Virus record (IMG/VR): IMGVR_UViG_3300035204_000030
Span: 1-29,348 of that record
DNA: 29,348 nucleotides
Strand: one strand, 5' to 3'
From: a virus
Shown piece by piece: positions 2 to 29,347 of the stretch. Under the pieces are notes generated by a model, which made no database searches, had not been told where the DNA came from, and saw nothing but the letters and a program-made list of their open reading frames with translations. Numbering within the stretch: the first letter of the stretch is position 1; every line of letters begins with the position of its first letter. A program made the translations under genes and the position numbers.

Positions 2-709
2 GAAAGAATATTAAAATCAGACCAAGGTCCAAAATGTGTAGTATTTGAAAGTGTATATTCTATGGACGGAGATATTGCTCCTGTAAAAGAAATAGCTGAC
101 TTATGTAAAAAGTATAATGCAATTTCTTATATTGATGAAGTACACGCTGTTGGTCTTTATGGACAAGAAGGTGCTGGAATATGTGAAAGAGATAATGTAG
201 AAGTTGATATAATAAATGGAACTTTAGCAAAGGCGTTCGGTGTACAAGGTGGATACATTGCAGGAAAGAGAGAGTTTATTGACGCAATAAGAAGTATGGC
301 GAGTGCTTTTATTTTTACAACTTCTGTAAGTCCAGTTATTTGTGCTGGTGCTTTAACAAGTGTTAAGTATGTTAGAGACCATCCTGAATTAAGAGATAAG
401 ATACACGAAAGAGCAAACAAAACAAAAGAAGAACTTGAAAGACAAGGAATAGAAGTTATGAAAAATGATAGTCATATTGTTCCTGTTATTATTGGAGAAG
501 CAAAAAGATGTAAAGCAATATCAGATGAATTACTTTACAAAGAAGGTATCTATGTACAACCTATCAATTGGCCAACGGTTGCTGTAGGTACTGAAAGATT
601 AAGATTTACTCCAACACCATTTCATACAGATAAGTTAATATTTGATATGGTAGTTAAAGTTAAATCTGCTATCAAAAAGTGTGGTAAGGGTTTAAAATAT
701 GATAGATAA
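2..709 (+). CDS. hemA: 5-aminolevulinate synthase, C-terminal part (cut by window edge)
   Basis: The reading frame is open from base 2, so the N-terminus lies outside the window; about 235 of the usual ~400 residues are present. ALAS condenses glycine and succinyl-CoA to 5-aminolevulinate, the first step of the C4 route to heme and other tetrapyrroles. Visible signatures are ESVYSMDGD, the PLP-contacting [10 protein letters not shown], and [12 protein letters not shown], whose lysine (codon 230-232) should form the Schiff base with PLP. The C-terminal [21 protein letters not shown] matches the family end, so the gene looks intact at its 3' side. These motifs favour ALAS over the related enzymes AONS (BioF) and KBL. 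It overlaps the next small gene by 11 nt. In a T4-like genome it is an auxiliary metabolic gene. The C4 pathway is typical of alphaproteobacteria, which fits a host of that class (inference). Confidence 0.9.
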
Positions 710-878
710 AATTATAGCTGACGGTGGAGATGGTTTAGATGTTCTAATATATTGTCTATTCAACGAACCTTTTATACAAGGAATTATATTATTTGGGTTG
801 TTTATAGCGTTATTTTCTTGGTACTATGATAAAAAAATAGATGATAAAGCAAACTGGCACGGAAGCGACCACCTATAA
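699..878 (+). CDS. small single-pass membrane protein, unknown function
   Basis: A 59-residue protein starts inside the end of the ALAS gene (11-nt overlap) and stops just before the late promoter of gene 13. It begins [10 protein letters not shown] and has one hydrophobic helix at about residues 27-42 ([19 protein letters not shown]), then a charged tail ending in WHGSDHL. The layout suggests an inner-membrane protein with a short hydrophilic C-terminus. The overlap suggests translational coupling to ALAS. I do not recognise a family. It could be a structural or lysis-associated small protein, but nothing in the sequence settles this. Confidence 0.6.
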
Positions 879-3392: not shown

Positions 3393-4073
3393 ATGGACGA
3401 GATTTTATACAAAGAAAATTGCTTACCAGGTAATGTAGCAAATAGTTTTCAAAATAATATATACAGATTAGGTTATATAATATCTAAAGATATATTAGCA
3501 AATCAAATGGACAATCCAGGTATTGTTAAAGATGACAATACTTTCAATACCGTTCAAATGGTACACCGAGTCTATTCACACATAGACCAAAGACCACAAG
3601 TTAACCCAGGATTTGAACCAATTAAATATGCTTTGAATATGATGGTTGAAGGTTTTGGTTATAAAGTGAAAGAAATATTAAGATTAAAATTTAATATGAT
3701 ACAACCCCATCCAGATTTCAAAGAAGGTATGTATAACACAGCACATATTGATGATGAAGAAATGGCAAACCATTTTGTCTTAATTTATTATCCAATAGAT
3801 TCTGATGGCGATACTTATTTGTTTAATGAGAAATTTGATAAGCTAAAGAAACCAGAAAAACTAACTATACATAAACGAATAACACCAAAAGCAAATAGTT
3901 GTGTTATGTTTAAGGGAAATAGATTTCACGCAAGTGCTAATCCAATTAAAAGTGAAATGAGAATTATATTAAATTGTAATTTTTCTTTAGTAGAAAAGGA
4001 AGAGTTTAATGAACATAATAGAGATACAAGAAATGATCCTTTTAAAGGAACAAGTATAGAAGGTAAAGACTAA
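3393..4073 (+). CDS. 2-oxoglutarate/Fe(II)-dependent oxygenase inserted between genes 15 and 16
   Basis: The 226-residue protein has a double-stranded beta-helix oxygenase pattern. The probable iron ligands are H118 and D120 (AHIDDEE) and H179 (NRFHASANP), and the 2-oxoglutarate-binding arginine is R190 (SEMRIILNCNF). Proteins of this class couple oxidative decarboxylation of 2-oxoglutarate to hydroxylation or demethylation of a substrate. The layout resembles prolyl-4-hydroxylase-like phage enzymes, but the substrate cannot be read from sequence. It has its own AGAGGA ribosome site (3383-3388), and its stop overlaps the ATG of gene 16 by one base, so it is embedded in the late head/tail operon. 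A role in modifying a virion or host protein or nucleic acid is possible (inference). Confidence 0.8.
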   Translation: MDEILYKENCLPGNVANSFQNNIYRLGYIISKDILANQMDNPGIVKDDNTFNTVQMVHRVYSHIDQRPQVNPGFEPIKYALNMMVEGFGYKVKEILRLKFNMIQPHPDFKEGMYNTAHIDDEEMANHFVLIYYPIDSDGDTYLFNEKFDKLKKPEKLTIHKRITPKANSCVMFKGNRFHASANPIKSEMRIILNCNFSLVEKEEFNEHNRDTRNDPFKGTSIEGKD

Positions 4074-16678: not shown

Positions 16679-17242
16679 ATGATTTTAGAGAAACTATACT
16701 GGCGACAGGACGGTTTATTTGATTCTTCTTTTATTAAGAAAGTTAAAGAACTAGCTAGTCAGCAAAAATTAAAAGACTTACAATTACAAGATAAAAACCG
16801 AACACTTTTAACTAGAGATAGTAAAGGTTGTTTTATAAAAAGCACTTGGTTACAAACTCAATTAGCTCCTGTTATTAATAATACAAATAGGACTCTTGGT
16901 TGGAATTTTAAACTATCAAAATTAGAAGACTTACAATATACATCATACGATAAAACACAACACTATTCTTGGCATACAGATACACACGCTAAACCATATG
17001 CAGATGGTATGGTTAGAAAAATTAGTTTCTCTTTAATATTAAATGACGAATTTGAAGGTGGTGACTTTGCAATATGTGAAGCACATCCTGACCCAGCAAA
17101 AGCCGTAATACATAGATTTGAAAAAACAAAACCAGGTACTATCATAGTATTCTATTCTGGTCTATGGCATAAAGTTTATCCTGTTAAATCAGGACAAAGA
17201 CAATCACTAGTAGGTTGGACATTAGGTTCCAAATTTCAATAA
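16679..17242 (+). CDS. 2-oxoglutarate/Fe(II)-dependent oxygenase (PKHD-type) between uvsY and uvsW
   Basis: The 187-residue protein shows a complete iron- and 2-oxoglutarate-binding set: H99 and D101 in YSWHTDTH, H164 in LWHKVYPV, and R174 in GQRQSLVGW, with the strand ISFSLILNDEFEGGDF between them. This layout is that of the prolyl-4-hydroxylase-like PKHD family (PiuC/YbiX type). The substrate is unknown. It starts 2 nt after uvsY and its stop overlaps the uvsW ATG by one base (TAATG), so it is part of the early recombination operon. That position suggests a role during the DNA or host-takeover stage rather than in the virion (inference). Confidence 0.88.
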   Translation: MILEKLYWRQDGLFDSSFIKKVKELASQQKLKDLQLQDKNRTLLTRDSKGCFIKSTWLQTQLAPVINNTNRTLGWNFKLSKLEDLQYTSYDKTQHYSWHTDTHAKPYADGMVRKISFSLILNDEFEGGDFAICEAHPDPAKAVIHRFEKTKPGTIIVFYSGLWHKVYPVKSGQRQSLVGWTLGSKFQ

Positions 17243-21251: not shown

Positions 21252-22963
21252 TAATATTTCATAATATAACTTGGAAGAACTTTTTATCAACAGGTAATAC
21301 TCCTATAAGTGTTAATCTAGCAGAAAAACCTACAACATTAATTATAGGAACTAATGGGTCAGGTAAATCAACATTGTTAGACGCAATATGTTTTGCTTTG
21401 TTTAATAAACCATTTAGAATTATTAAGAAAGACCAGATGGTCAATACGATTAATAATGCTGATACCGTAGTAGAATTAAATTTTAGTGTAGGTCCTAAAA
21501 AGTATAAAGTTGTTAGAGGAATTAAACCTAATGTATTTGAAATATACCAAGACGGAATTTTAATTAACCAAGACGCAAGTACTATAGACTATCAAAAACA
21601 TTTAGAAAAAAATATAATGAAATTAAACTATAGGTCCTTTTGTCAAGTTGTTATATTAGGGTCTTCTTTATATGAACCATTTATGAAGATGAGAGCAAGG
21701 AATCGTAGAGAAGTAATTGAAGAAATATTAGACATTAAAGTATTTCAAAATATGAACTACTTATTAAGGAGCAAACAGCAAGACCTTACAAAAGATATTA
21801 CTACATTAAGACATCAAGTAGATTTGATTGAGAATAAAGTTGACCTACAAGAGAAACATTATAATGAATTACAAGGTAGAGATACAGACGCTATATCTAA
21901 AAAGAAAGAAGACATAGAAAAAGCACATAGTCATAAGAGAGATTATATGACTAGAATAGAAAGTCTTAATAAAGAACTTAATGAGAACGAACAGAAATTA
22001 TTAGGCAAGACAAAGACAAAAGATAAGTTTACACAATTACATAAGTTAGAAGCAAAGATAGACCAGAACTTAAAGACACATAAGAAAACATTAAAATTTT
22101 TTGAAGACAATACTAATTGTCCTACTTGTACACAGGAGATAGAACAAGGTTTTAGACAGACAAAGATTAGTAAGGAGAAAGACGCTGTAGTTAAATTACA
22201 AGATGGTTATAAAAAATTATTATCAGAAATAACTAATACAGAAGAAAAAATATTAGGATTTGATAACATTGCACAAAAAGTTAGAACCATAGAAACTAAT
22301 GTTGCAAAACTAACCACTTCTATTGATGAGATTAAAAGACATACAGATAGAATACAAGATGAGATAGATAGGTTATCAGTTGAGGATGCTGGCGGCCTAA
22401 ATATAAAAGAAGAAATTGCTAAACTAAAAAGAGAATTAGTTGACGCAAAAGTACAAAGAGATAATGTTATTGAGGAGAAAAAATATATTGATATATTGAG
22501 ACAGATAGTAGATGATAGTGGAGCAAGAGCACAAATTATTAAAAAGTATTTACCGATTATGAATACTTTAATTAATAACTATTTACAAGCTATGGACTTC
22601 TTTGTATCATTCCATTTAGATGAAGAATTTAACGAAACGGTTAAGAGCAGACATATGGACTCCTTTAACTACAATAACTTTAGTGAAGGTGAGAAAATGA
22701 GAATAGACCTTGCATTATTATTTACTTGGAGAAGTATTGCAAAAATGAAAAATAGTGTTAATACAAACTTACTAATATTAGATGAGATATTTGATTCAAG
22801 TTTAGATGGACAAGGAACAGATGATTTCTTTAAAATTATTAAGACACTAACAAAAGAAAACATCTTTATCATATCACATAAAGGAGATATAATGTTTGAT
22901 AAATTTACTAATATAATTAAATTTGAAAAGTACCAAAACTTTACGAGGATAGCAAATGTCTAA
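21248..22963 (+). CDS. 46: recombination endonuclease subunit gp46 (SbcC/Rad50-like)
   Basis: The 571-residue protein matches T4 gp46 (560 residues), the ATPase partner of gp47. Walker A is GTNGSGKST (34-42). The signature motif FSEGEKMRIDLAL lies near 477 and Walker B LLILDEIFDSSLD near 508. The middle is a long coiled coil split by a zinc-hook motif CPTC (290-293), as in Rad50 and SbcC. Gene 46 overlaps the following deformylase gene by 8 nt, so the accessory cassette downstream is likely co-translated. Confidence 0.95.
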   Translation: MIIFHNITWKNFLSTGNTPISVNLAEKPTTLIIGTNGSGKSTLLDAICFALFNKPFRIIKKDQMVNTINNADTVVELNFSVGPKKYKVVRGIKPNVFEIYQDGILINQDASTIDYQKHLEKNIMKLNYRSFCQVVILGSSLYEPFMKMRARNRREVIEEILDIKVFQNMNYLLRSKQQDLTKDITTLRHQVDLIENKVDLQEKHYNELQGRDTDAISKKKEDIEKAHSHKRDYMTRIESLNKELNENEQKLLGKTKTKDKFTQLHKLEAKIDQNLKTHKKTLKFFEDNTNCPTCTQEIEQGFRQTKISKEKDAVVKLQDGYKKLLSEITNTEEKILGFDNIAQKVRTIETNVAKLTTSIDEIKRHTDRIQDEIDRLSVEDAGGLNIKEEIAKLKRELVDAKVQRDNVIEEKKYIDILRQIVDDSGARAQIIKKYLPIMNTLINNYLQAMDFFVSFHLDEEFNETVKSRHMDSFNYNNFSEGEKMRIDLALLFTWRSIAKMKNSVNTNLLILDEIFDSSLDGQGTDDFFKIIKTLTKENIFIISHKGDIMFDKFTNIIKFEKYQNFTRIANV

Positions 22964-23777
22964 AAAAACAAGAAGACCAATGACGGTTGAAGAAGAAGAA
23001 AAATTTAAAGATGAAATGATGGCGATGGCAGATAAACAATTTAAAGAAGGTACTCCAGATACGCAAGAAGGCGTGTGGGAAGATACAACCAACATCAAAG
23101 AAAAATTAGAAAAACAAGCAGAAGATAATAAGATTTTGAAGGAAGTACCAGTAGAAGATATTCCTTACGAAGTAAGAGACGGAGTTAATCCTAAAACATT
23201 TAATAAACAATTAATAGAACCAGCTAATCCTATGTTAAGGTCTCCTGTTGCACCTTATAAAGATGAACTACTTAAAGAGTTTGGTCTTAAAAGTAGAAAA
23301 GAATTAGTAGATAGTATGTTTGAACTTATGCACAAATATGGTGGTATAGGTTTGAGTGCGATACAAATAGGATTACCATTCAATATGTTTGTTGCAGGTG
23401 ACCATAAGTCAATTGAAAACGGAATGAAACTTGCAATGTTTAATCCTGTAATATTATCAAGTAGTGAAGAAACGGTTATGATGAAAGAAGGTTGTTTAAC
23501 TTTTCCTTTCTTATTCATTAACATTGTTAGACCTAGAAAATGTGTTATGAAATATGAAGATGAAAATGGTGATTTAAAAGAAGCACATTTAGATGGTATG
23601 ATGAGTAGAGTATGTCAACACGAATACGACCATCAAGCAGGAATATTAATGCCAATGAAAGTTAGTAAAATGAAACTAGACTTGGCATACAAGAAAGCTG
23701 AAAAGGAGATGAAAAAATGGAGACGATACCAGAAACAAATGGAAAAATCAAAACCAGTAAAGGTGAAAAATGGTTGA
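22956..23777 (+). CDS. def: peptide deformylase with a long N-terminal extension
   Basis: The 273-residue protein carries all three deformylase motifs: GIGLSAIQIG (130-139), EGCLTFP (178-184) and QHEYDH (221-226). The Cys and two His should bind the catalytic metal, and the Glu is the general base. The enzyme removes the N-formyl group from new proteins. Typical bacterial and phage deformylases are about 130-190 residues; here about 90 extra residues precede the domain, acidic and probably disordered (MTVEEEEKFKDEMMAMADKQ). The C-terminal Lys-rich tail is also long. Deformylase is known in cyanophages as an auxiliary gene. It overlaps gene 46 and the next gene by 8 nt each. Confidence 0.92.
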   Translation: MSKKTRRPMTVEEEEKFKDEMMAMADKQFKEGTPDTQEGVWEDTTNIKEKLEKQAEDNKILKEVPVEDIPYEVRDGVNPKTFNKQLIEPANPMLRSPVAPYKDELLKEFGLKSRKELVDSMFELMHKYGGIGLSAIQIGLPFNMFVAGDHKSIENGMKLAMFNPVILSSSEETVMMKEGCLTFPFLFINIVRPRKCVMKYEDENGDLKEAHLDGMMSRVCQHEYDHQAGILMPMKVSKMKLDLAYKKAEKEMKKWRRYQKQMEKSKPVKVKNG

Positions 23778-24246
23778 AATAATTAACGACATATCTCATA
23801 TAAAAGATTTCGATTCTTTTAAATACGATGGTTTTGAAACAGGTTTATTAAATGTAGATAACACAGCGTTTGCTGAAGTAGCTTGGCCACCATTAGATAA
23901 AGAGTATTTACCTGAAAAGGCAAAGAAAGAAATAGAAAAAATTAAATCACAATTAGAACCAATCTTTAAAAAGAGATACAAAAATATTAAATTAAATTTT
24001 ACTGGTGTCTGGAAAGGTTATGTTGAAGGTGTACGAGGCAATGTAATAGTGTACCTAGATAAATCAGACTATACTACAGGCAACTTTATTGAGGTTACAG
24101 CACTAGACAGATGTAAGATATTTCCTGAACAAGGAGAGTATGTTTGGTTTAACGATAATATTAAATTTGTAAAAAGATTTAACAATGATGAGGTAAATAA
24201 TATCAGGTTTATACACTTTGATTACAAATTAAATAATGATGAGTGA
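23770..24246 (+). CDS. unknown protein in the accessory cassette
   Basis: The 158-residue protein has a helical middle (PEKAKKEIEKIKSQLEPIFK) and a beta-rich C-terminal half (GNVIVYLDKSDYTTGNFIEV, EQGEYVWFNDNIKFVKRF, IRFIHFDYKL). The strand order loosely recalls the double-stranded beta-helix of oxygenases, and an Arg in NNIRFIHFDY sits where the 2-oxoglutarate-binding Arg would be, but there is no HxD motif. A degenerate member or unrelated fold is possible. Overlaps of 8 nt before and 11 nt after tie it to the deformylase and the fusion enzyme. Confidence 0.6.
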   Translation: MVEIINDISHIKDFDSFKYDGFETGLLNVDNTAFAEVAWPPLDKEYLPEKAKKEIEKIKSQLEPIFKKRYKNIKLNFTGVWKGYVEGVRGNVIVYLDKSDYTTGNFIEVTALDRCKIFPEQGEYVWFNDNIKFVKRFNNDEVNNIRFIHFDYKLNNDE

Positions 24247-25432
24247 TAAAGACTTGCAAGAGTACGAAGATAATATTAAAATGATGAAGAAAAAGGAAAT
24301 GAAACCTTGGCAAAAAGGATTTGATTTAGATTATCTAAAGAAGTTAGAAAAGAACTTTAATAGTTATAACGAGTATGCTCAACACGAATTAAGTAAGTTT
24401 AAAAAGAACAATATTGCTGAAGCATTGAGTAGAGATAATATTCAATTAATAGGTCCAGCACTTATCCACACAGAAGAAGTAAAGAGTAAAGTAAATATAT
24501 GGATGTTTCCAGGAGTACTTTTAGGTACGAAGTATCCAGGAGATTTACATATTAAACATTTAGGTTATACAGATGAACAAGATAGAAAAAATATTATCAC
24601 AACATTAACAGAAGATATAAGATACATAACTAAAAATGTATGGTTATTTATTAATGAAGAAAATCCTAACGATAAAGATATTGCTGAAAAAGCAGGATTT
24701 AAAAAAGTAGGTGCCAAATACAATTCAGTTGCAGATTTGATTGGTGTTTATTATAAAGATTCTAATAGTGCTTTAGAAGAAAGACAACACCCACATATTC
24801 CAACTTACGAAAAATATACATTAAAACCATTACAATTAACTTTTTCAGGAATAGTACCAATACTAGCAAAACAATTAGAAGAAAAAGCAATAGAGTTTAC
24901 TAATCATTATTCAAATTATAATAAAGAAAAAGCTTGGAGTGCTATATCATTAAGAGGTTATAGTCCTGATTGGAGATTTATTACCAAACCAATAGAAATG
25001 AATAAGAAGTGGCAAGAAGAAAACAAAGATAAAAAATTTAAACTACAAGATACAGAATTACGAAAAGAGTTTCCATTAGTTGAAGATATATTAGATTTCT
25101 TTCCAACTGAAATACACCGAGTTAGATTTATGAATTTGAAACCAGGTGATGGAGAACTTGAAAGACATACAGACCAAGTGGATCCAGACATAGGAATATC
25201 AAATGGAAGATTAATGAGATTACATATTCCTATTGCAACCAATTCAAAAGTAGAGTTTACAAGTTGGGGTATAACAGGAAGTAAAACAATTGTTAATATG
25301 GAAGAAGGACATTGTTGGTATTTGGATATAAGAAAACCACATAAAGCAATCAATGGTGGTAAAACTTGGAGAACTCATTTAGTAATAGATGTAGTTGCTA
25401 ATGAACAAATTAGAAGTATGTTATCAGTATGA
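24236..25432 (+). CDS. two-domain protein: GNAT-like N-terminal part and aspartyl/asparaginyl hydroxylase-like C-terminal domain
   Basis: The 398-residue protein appears to be a fusion. The C-terminal ~200 residues resemble the aspartyl/asparaginyl beta-hydroxylase family: H311 and D313 (ERHTDQVD), the strand RLMRLHIPI (325-333), EEGHCWYLDIRKPH with H369, and R379 in WRTHLVID. These would bind Fe(II) and 2-oxoglutarate. The N-terminal ~175 residues end in IAEKAGFKKVGAKYNSVADL followed by IGVYYKD, which looks like the last strands of a GNAT acyltransferase; the acetyl-CoA loop is not clear, so this part is tentative. Start may be 24236 or the next codon, also ATG (24239). The substrate is unknown; amino-acid or peptide hydroxylation is possible. 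Confidence 0.7.
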   Translation: MMSDKDLQEYEDNIKMMKKKEMKPWQKGFDLDYLKKLEKNFNSYNEYAQHELSKFKKNNIAEALSRDNIQLIGPALIHTEEVKSKVNIWMFPGVLLGTKYPGDLHIKHLGYTDEQDRKNIITTLTEDIRYITKNVWLFINEENPNDKDIAEKAGFKKVGAKYNSVADLIGVYYKDSNSALEERQHPHIPTYEKYTLKPLQLTFSGIVPILAKQLEEKAIEFTNHYSNYNKEKAWSAISLRGYSPDWRFITKPIEMNKKWQEENKDKKFKLQDTELRKEFPLVEDILDFFPTEIHRVRFMNLKPGDGELERHTDQVDPDIGISNGRLMRLHIPIATNSKVEFTSWGITGSKTIVNMEEGHCWYLDIRKPHKAINGGKTWRTHLVIDVVANEQIRSMLSV

Positions 25433-26184
25433 AAGCGTATGAGTTTCCAAAAGTAGAGATAGAACAACACGAAGGTATCTTTGTATTAAGAGACGATAAA
25501 CTAGAAGGTGGTTCTAAACGGAGATTTATTGATAGATATATCCGTGAAGAAATATCTAAAGGTGCAAATGAATTTGTATTTGGTGGTTGTCCTGCAACAG
25601 GATATGCCCAAATGTCATTACCTCTACAAGCAAAACAATATGGTGCTAAGGCAACTTTATTTATGGCAAAAAGAAGTTTAGATAACTTACACCCATACCA
25701 AAAGAAAGCGTTAGAATATGGTTGTGATATACGCTGGGTAAAAATGGGTATGTTAAATATAACACTATTTCACGCTAGAAAATATTACGAACAAGACACT
25801 TATCATAGAAGAAATTTTCCATTAGGATTAGAAGATGAAAGAGTACTACAAGATATAGAAGAATTAGGTAAACAAATTGCAGATGAATGGTCTGCTGAAA
25901 ACTTTTCAGAAATATGGACCGTAGGTTCTAGTGGTACTTTATCCAGAGGATTACAAAGAGCATTTCCGAAATTAGAAGTGCATTGTGTATCTGTAGGTCA
26001 CAGAATGAGTGAAAGAGAACTAGGTAGAGCAAAGTTTTATAAATCACCTTATAAATTTGACAAACCTATTAAGAAAGAAGAAGCGCCACCGTTTCCGTCT
26101 GCACCAACATATGACGCAAAGGCGTGGCCATTTATTAAACAATATGCAAAGCCAAGGGCTTTGTTCTGGAATGTAGGAGCATAA
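25429..26184 (+). CDS. fold-type II PLP-dependent enzyme (ACC deaminase/D-cysteine desulfhydrase-like)
   Basis: The 251-residue protein starts with an ATGA overlap on the preceding gene. VLRDDKLEGGSKRRF (19-33) matches the lysine region of the ACC deaminase/D-cysteine desulfhydrase group, with K30 as the likely PLP lysine. GGCPATGYAQMSLPLQAKQY follows, where family members have an Asn/Gln-rich substrate loop, and GSSGT (166-170) fits the PLP phosphate loop. At 251 residues it is shorter than the usual ~330, lacking part of the C-terminal region. The reaction cannot be fixed from sequence: deaminase, desulfhydrase, or another beta-elimination activity. It closes the cassette; an intergenic promoter follows. 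Confidence 0.65.
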   Translation: MKAYEFPKVEIEQHEGIFVLRDDKLEGGSKRRFIDRYIREEISKGANEFVFGGCPATGYAQMSLPLQAKQYGAKATLFMAKRSLDNLHPYQKKALEYGCDIRWVKMGMLNITLFHARKYYEQDTYHRRNFPLGLEDERVLQDIEELGKQIADEWSAENFSEIWTVGSSGTLSRGLQRAFPKLEVHCVSVGHRMSERELGRAKFYKSPYKFDKPIKKEEAPPFPSAPTYDAKAWPFIKQYAKPRALFWNVGA

Positions 26185-28510: not shown

Positions 28511-29347
28511 ATGATACAAAAAGGACACATAAAAAAAGATACTATCAATTTTGACCAGAAGTCAAACCTTGCAAAATTATTAGCCACAGAAAATATCACG
28601 GTTCAACACGACCAAGTTAAAACTGCTTCATTTAATTTAGAAGACAGGATTTTAACAATCCCTATATTTAAAAATCCAAAAGGTGCTGTATATGATATGT
28701 TAGTGGGACACGAAGTTTCACACGCATTACACACGCCACAAAAAGACTGGATTGACGCATTAAAAAAAGATGACTTAATGAAGATTAAAGATTACATTAA
28801 TGTTATTGAAGATGTTAGAATAGATAAAATGATACAGAAGAAGTATCCTGGATTAGTAAATGATTATAGAGACGGATTTCATATATTATGGAATGATAAT
28901 TTCTTTGGTTGTAAAGATAAAGACCTAAACAAAGAATTAATGTTGATTGATAAAATCAACTTGCATTTTAAATCTTCAAAAACTTTAGATATTAAATTTT
29001 CAAATGCTGATAAGTTATTTGTTAACCTTGTTGATAAGTGTAAAACATTTAAAGATGTTATAGAGGCAGCTAAAAAACTTGCAGAATGGCAAAAAAAAGA
29101 AAACGAAAAATTAGAGAAGTTACCAGATTTTGATAGCCACCCCCTAACTTTATCTTATGGAGAGAAACCTAAAGAAGAAGAAAACCAAGATGATAACGAA
29201 GGTTCTTCTCCATCAGATAAATCAGATGACGAAAAATCAGATATAGAAAAAGCTATAGAAGAAGCAAACGCAATTAAAAAAGAGGCAGAAGGTAAAAAAG
29301 ATTCAGAAGATAATGAGAAGTCAGGAAGTGCTGATAAAGATACTAAA
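28511..29347 (+). CDS. zinc metallopeptidase-like protein, N-terminal part (cut by window edge)
   Basis: The frame is open to the window end, giving 279 residues without a stop. HEVSHALHT (HExxH at 67-71) is a zinc-peptidase site. The following INVIEDVRIDKMIQKKYPG (from about 97) has the E-D pair expected for a third metal ligand in the metallopeptidase domain found with VWA/CobT-like proteins in T4-like phages. From about residue 210 the chain becomes acidic and Ser/Lys-rich (NQDDNEGSSPSDKSDDEKSD), like the linker in CobT-type proteins; a VWA domain may follow outside the window. No other ATG is available before residue 63, so I use 28511 even though no ribosome site precedes it. The target is unknown. 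Confidence 0.75.
   Translation, partial: MIQKGHIKKDTINFDQKSNLAKLLATENITVQHDQVKTASFNLEDRILTIPIFKNPKGAVYDMLVGHEVSHALHTPQKDWIDALKKDDLMKIKDYINVIEDVRIDKMIQKKYPGLVNDYRDGFHILWNDNFFGCKDKDLNKELMLIDKINLHFKSSKTLDIKFSNADKLFVNLVDKCKTFKDVIEAAKKLAEWQKKENEKLEKLPDFDSHPLTLSYGEKPKEEENQDDNEGSSPSDKSDDEKSDIEKAIEEANAIKKEAEGKKDSEDNEKSGSADKDTK

Follow-up and report, generated by a model that had tools for sequence, protein, structure and literature searches.

A viral 5-aminolevulinate synthase gene beside the neck genes of a pelagiphage-like contig, and the membrane-protein genes that accompany it

The analyzed window was the entire IMG/VR record IMGVR_UViG_3300035204_000030 (29,348 bases). Its first gene, valaS (positions 2–709, plus strand), encodes the C-terminal 235 residues of a 5-aminolevulinate synthase (ALAS), the initial enzyme of heme biosynthesis, in a frame that runs without an internal stop from the record's first base to a TAA codon at 707–709. 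A 59-residue protein with one hydrophobic stretch is encoded next (699–878, plus strand), and its gene begins inside valaS, overlapping the end of valaS by 11 nt. The neck genes follow on the same strand: gp13, the head-tail adaptor Ad2 (915–1721; phrog_211, E = 5.8e-43), and gp14, the head closure protein Hc2 (1729–2568; phrog_460, E = 3.5e-73). A first-pass annotation, made from the letters alone, had described an ALAS fragment with intact visible motifs, located beside neck genes and overlapped by 11 nt by a small membrane protein. All of these elements were confirmed, the visible frame containing the motif GTLAKAFG and matching the ALAS model TIGR01821 far above chance (E = 1.7e-95).

The visible part represents approximately 58–60% of valaS, and the 5′ portion of approximately 42% (about 166 residues relative to L002, a full-length relative with 96% identity) is absent. 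Because the record comprises just 29,348 bases and the window covers all of them, we attributed this absence to the contig edge and not to a lesion. Close relatives with 95–96% identity over the visible part are 400–401 residues long from the aligned start, placing the beginning of the window at residue 167, and full-length viral relatives range from 397 to 412 residues. Stops or lost catalytic residues in the missing part had been named beforehand as grounds for rejecting the annotation; in the 95–96% identical relatives, the 5′ parts were intact. The window copy of valaS looks intact, cut solely by the contig start, and is under purifying selection (dN/dS of 0.12–0.23 against close relatives).

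We compared the fragment with related enzyme families, given that 8-amino-7-oxononanoate synthase (AONS, BioF) and 2-amino-3-ketobutyrate CoA ligase (KBL) belong to the same superfamily (Pfam match of the fragment: E = 2e-44) and that the fragment also produced significant matches to both. These matches were far weaker than that to ALAS: the fragment scored 320.3 bits with TIGR01821, as compared with 196 bits for bioF and 195 bits for glycine C-acetyltransferase, leaving a gap of 124 bits to the next family. The score lies just under the whole-protein cut-off of TIGR01821 (338.6 bits), as expected for a fragment that covers 58% of the protein length. The top PDB matches of the fragment were ALAS crystal structures (7x98 and 2bwn), and a profile of the full-length viral proteins matched the same structures with E values of 5.5e-142 and 4e-138, respectively. 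The ALAS-type residues Thr83 and Asn85 were present in 62 of 62 viral sequences, at positions occupied by Ser/His in BioF and by Val/Phe in Kbl. Two trees with Escherichia coli BioF and Kbl as the outgroup, a placement that the first-pass annotation had proposed as a check, both positioned the window within a viral ALAS group and away from the outgroup. ALAS separated from BioF and Kbl with 97–99% SH-aLRT support; the outgroup branches are very long, and the root position is not firm. Profile scores, trees, and the Thr83/Asn85 residues together ruled out AONS or KBL, and we consider it extremely improbable that the protein is any alpha-oxoamine synthase other than ALAS.

Next, we focused on the catalytic residues. 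Besides Thr83 and Asn85, Ile86 was conserved in all 62 viral sequences and Arg21 in 14/14 full-length relatives, these positions lying outside the window; Arg21, Thr83, and Asn85 of the Rhodobacter capsulatus structure are the residues that mark the use of succinyl-CoA. Within the window, the codon for the PLP lysine of GTLAKAFG, equivalent to Lys248 of R. capsulatus ALAS, is located at 230–232 (plus strand), and Lys was found at this position in 62/62 viral sequences. Likewise, the active-site Asp and His in the motif IDEVH and the active-site Arg in GTERLR occurred in the window and in every viral sequence (62/62). Two residues, His342 and Cys400, have been named for heme feedback (PMC11480375). 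In the alignment, an Arg codon (506–508, plus strand) occupies the His342 position, where His was found in 0 of 62 viral sequences, and a Cys codon (680–682, plus strand) aligns with Cys400, where Cys was found in 30 of 62, the C-terminal alignment being less certain. The replacement of His342 by Arg suggests that heme feedback is weakened or absent, and the retained Cys400 equivalent suggests that it may not be fully lost. The enzyme had been annotated as probably active. The conserved residues, the dN/dS values, and the activity of a homologue from the freshwater phage CB_2, which rescued an E. coli ALA auxotroph while its lysine mutant did not (PMC11480375), support this view, and the window's own copy is probably active.

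The window contains a T4-like pelagiphage backbone that includes the major capsid protein, gp13, and terminase. The major capsid protein showed 79% identity to that of Pelagibacter phage Mosig and 70% to that of HTVC008M, and gp13 showed 74% and 56% identity, respectively. By its protein sequences, the phage is Mosig/HTVC008M-like, that is, a pelagiphage, and these identities make SAR11 the probable host; Methylophilales phage Melnitz is also close. Several other genes on the contig attracted our attention. A 251-residue protein (25429–26184) that matched phrog_7093, annotated as threonine dehydratase (E = 2e-27), and had no Pfam match is perhaps a second PLP-type enzyme of the phage. A peptide deformylase (22956–23777; PF01327, E = 2e-36) carries an N-terminal extension of approximately 90 residues, and the contig breaks off within a phage peptidase gene whose first part is present (28511–29347; phrog_459, E = 2e-77) and encodes the motif GHEVSH, which resembles that of metallopeptidases. 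At 24236–25432, 3393–4073, and 16679–17242, the contig encodes a protein resembling aspartyl/asparaginyl hydroxylases (PF05118) and two that resemble 2OG-Fe(II) oxygenases, one of these weakly.

In the nearest relatives of the window, the gene order is hemO, pcyX, valaS, the small membrane protein gene, gp13, gp14, and subsequently terminase. Relatives with 95–96% identity (e.g., L002, L003, and L004) carry hemO and pcyX directly upstream of valaS, and since the window starts inside valaS, the same two genes are predicted upstream of its own copy. A second arrangement (L024–L027 and L039) has hemO, pcyX, gp13, and gp14 in succession, with valaS further on before terminase and the small gene absent. 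When 41 valaS records were searched whole, bilin reductase (PF05996) was detected in 32 and heme oxygenase (PF01126) also in 32; absence from the remaining records proves little because many of them are fragments. Ferrochelatase (PF00762), sought as a further heme gene, was absent from the 41 records. The "putative ferrochelatase" genes of Mosig and HTVC008M (L200:6708–7478 and L201:1809–2450) had no Pfam match, which renders this annotation doubtful. In one locus, an IscA/HesB-type iron-sulfur assembly gene (L145:9188–9493; PF01521, E = 6e-14) is located directly behind valaS.

The location of valaS at the extreme end of the record raised the question of whether a bacterial gene had been joined to the contig end by misassembly or had recently been picked up from host DNA. 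The order valaS, small gene, gp13, and gp14 recurred across many independent contigs, and this synteny ruled out a chimeric contig end. As for a recent host origin, the best cellular ALAS among 385 alphaproteobacterial genomes was 58% identical to the phage protein, as opposed to up to 96% for viral relatives, and two cellular ALAS from AT-rich small genomes (27% GC) were just 49–50% identical to L002 and still fell in the cellular group. The window was placed in a purely viral ALAS group, separate from every alphaproteobacterial ALAS sampled, and the 33 cellular ALAS of the second tree all fell into a single group (SH-aLRT of 100). A recent host origin was therefore not supported, and we give either form of contamination hardly any credence. 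The viral enzymes are separate, with no sampled alphaproteobacterial copy closer than approximately 58%, which confirms that ALAS belongs durably to a pelagiphage lineage and is no stray host gene. A scan of IMG/VR yielded upwards of 500 stretches that code for relatives of the enzyme, a number that may include other alpha-oxoamine synthases. Together with a published description (PMC11480375), this settled the earlier doubt as to how widely phage ALAS is reported. With regard to isolated phages, a tblastn search of a phage collection with the ALAS fragment yielded weak superfamily matches only.

To characterize the small membrane protein, we collected its homologues. Twelve homologues from phage contigs could be aligned (lineage length of 59–66 residues), and pairwise dN/dS was 0.13–0.41 in the close clade; on these grounds, 699–878 is a real gene. 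Because it overlaps valaS, it is probably translationally coupled to it. The protein had no Pfam or PHROG match, including none to PF04304 (DUF454/YbaN), and no match among 50,697 phage records. A scan of the viral collection detected 24 loci, with valaS upstream in all 24, using a search profile that was built from valaS-linked copies and with short proteins being easily missed. The first-pass annotation had suggested a functional link between this protein and ALAS, and the strict co-occurrence supports such a link at the level of gene content. It is also conceivable, although we lean against it, that the protein is a structural or lysis protein of the phage encoded there by chance: phages often encode small membrane proteins, the gene adjoins the neck genes, gp13 is also adjacent in most carriers, so that linkage to either neighbor is confounded, and the origin of the search profile favors valaS-linked loci. 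However, in L152 and most of L155–L163, loci in which no gp13 was found, valaS is followed by a DUF454 gene and then by the small protein gene. Conversely, the small gene is absent where pcyX abuts gp13 with no valaS between them (Mosig; L024–L027 and L039), and the 24 loci with valaS came from a scan for the small protein itself.

DUF454, a family distinct from the shorter one encoded at 699–878, occupies the corresponding place in other lineages, in which all six of the genes tested behind valaS matched PF04304 (YbaN; E = 1e-25 to 1e-30). We took a census of 67 viral ALAS clusters (approximately 90% identity), each flanked by 700 nt or more on the 3′ side. DUF454 was located on the same strand no more than 60 nt behind valaS in 29/67 clusters, none of which belonged to the window's clade, within 3 kb in a further 18, and elsewhere in the locus in 4; the small membrane protein was found instead in 4 clusters, and 12 had neither. 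Among 80 bacterial ALAS loci, DUF454 was found within 4 kb of ALAS in none. DUF454 genes at or close behind valaS, often with overlapping starts and stops, occurred in L152, L154–L156, L160–L163, L165–L167, L174, and L176, and further examples in L184, L185, L187, and many of L204–L273. In the window's own clade, no DUF454 match exceeded the family cut-off in records of up to 177 kb, and weak matches (E of approximately 1e-4) contained stops and were discarded. A strict tie of DUF454 to valaS was ruled out, as 30 of 63 distinct DUF454 phage loci had no valaS in the available stretch. One such phage cassette comprises heme oxygenase, bilin reductase (hemO-pcyX), and DUF454 with no ALAS in the available stretch (L370:650–2252). 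On another phage contig with no valaS in the available stretch, uroporphyrinogen decarboxylase (L310:5150–6115; PF01208, E = 5e-64) is encoded approximately 1.7 kb behind a DUF454 gene, and a literature search for this enzyme in connection with phages and auxiliary metabolic genes returned no paper. According to published work, DUF454 occurs together with heme oxygenase in the neighborhood of T11SS genes (PMC12282271) and is induced by iron limitation or starvation (PMC7970244).

These patterns led us to a tentative proposal, to which we assign less than even odds, that viral ALAS and a small membrane protein work together as a module specific to viruses, the membrane protein being DUF454 in most lineages, the 59–66-residue protein in that of the window, and both in an intermediate lineage (L152 and most of L155–L163). 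The partner might anchor the enzyme to the membrane, control its activity, or handle there the enzyme's product, heme, or iron. Co-occurrence cannot separate function from shared transfer. If the module were real, it would provide the first concrete place in tetrapyrrole metabolism for DUF454, a widespread family with no assigned function. The recurrent pairing of viral ALAS with membrane proteins offers a handle on DUF454/YbaN, and in this respect it matters more than the confirmation of ALAS.

Overall, we assign a probability of approximately 0.93 to the reading that the window gene is a pelagiphage valaS, which usually occupies third place in a hemO-pcyX-valaS cassette immediately ahead of the neck genes, and that it supplies tetrapyrrole in the following scheme. 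During infection, an enzyme with weakened or absent heme feedback would provide extra or less-regulated ALA synthesis and maintain the tetrapyrrole supply, to the presumed benefit of the phage. The resulting heme could support respiration or be directed to bilin, being opened by phage HemO and reduced by PcyX. The small membrane protein probably serves the same step, putatively at the membrane, for instance by anchoring the enzyme or by handling its product or heme. Because Mosig has hemO, pcyX, and gp13 without valaS, the gene is dispensable in close kin.

The finding of a phage ALAS as such is already known, since Wegner et al. (2024, Nat Commun 15:8783; PMC11480375) described valaS in marine and freshwater phages, either by itself or accompanied by hemO and pcyA/X, and showed one member to be active. 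They inferred a pelagiphage origin by gp13 and reported that viral AlaS is separate from the bacterial enzymes and has lost heme-regulatory residues. The window agrees with their vAlaS in the enzyme, the hemO-pcyX(-valaS) cassette, the gp13-based pelagiphage origin, the missing feedback residue or residues, and the separation from bacteria, whereas their characterized vAlaS comes from the freshwater phage CB_2. The main text of that paper does not mention DUF454, YbaN, membrane, or transmembrane, and a literature search confined to main texts outside subscription journals found no paper linking DUF454 to phage ALAS; the membrane-protein genes that travel with valaS (small protein and DUF454) thus seem to be undescribed in print. 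Mosig (EXVC030M; MT647606) and HTVC008M (KC465899), neither of which was matched by the tblastn search with the ALAS fragment, belong to the same phage group as the window; Mosig carries hemO and pcyX directly before gp13, and HTVC008M has 2OG-Fe(II) oxygenase genes in their place. The ALAS of R. capsulatus (2bwn) is collinear with the viral relatives over nearly the full length and shares the PLP lysine region, but it is a cellular enzyme with His342 at the position where the window encodes Arg.
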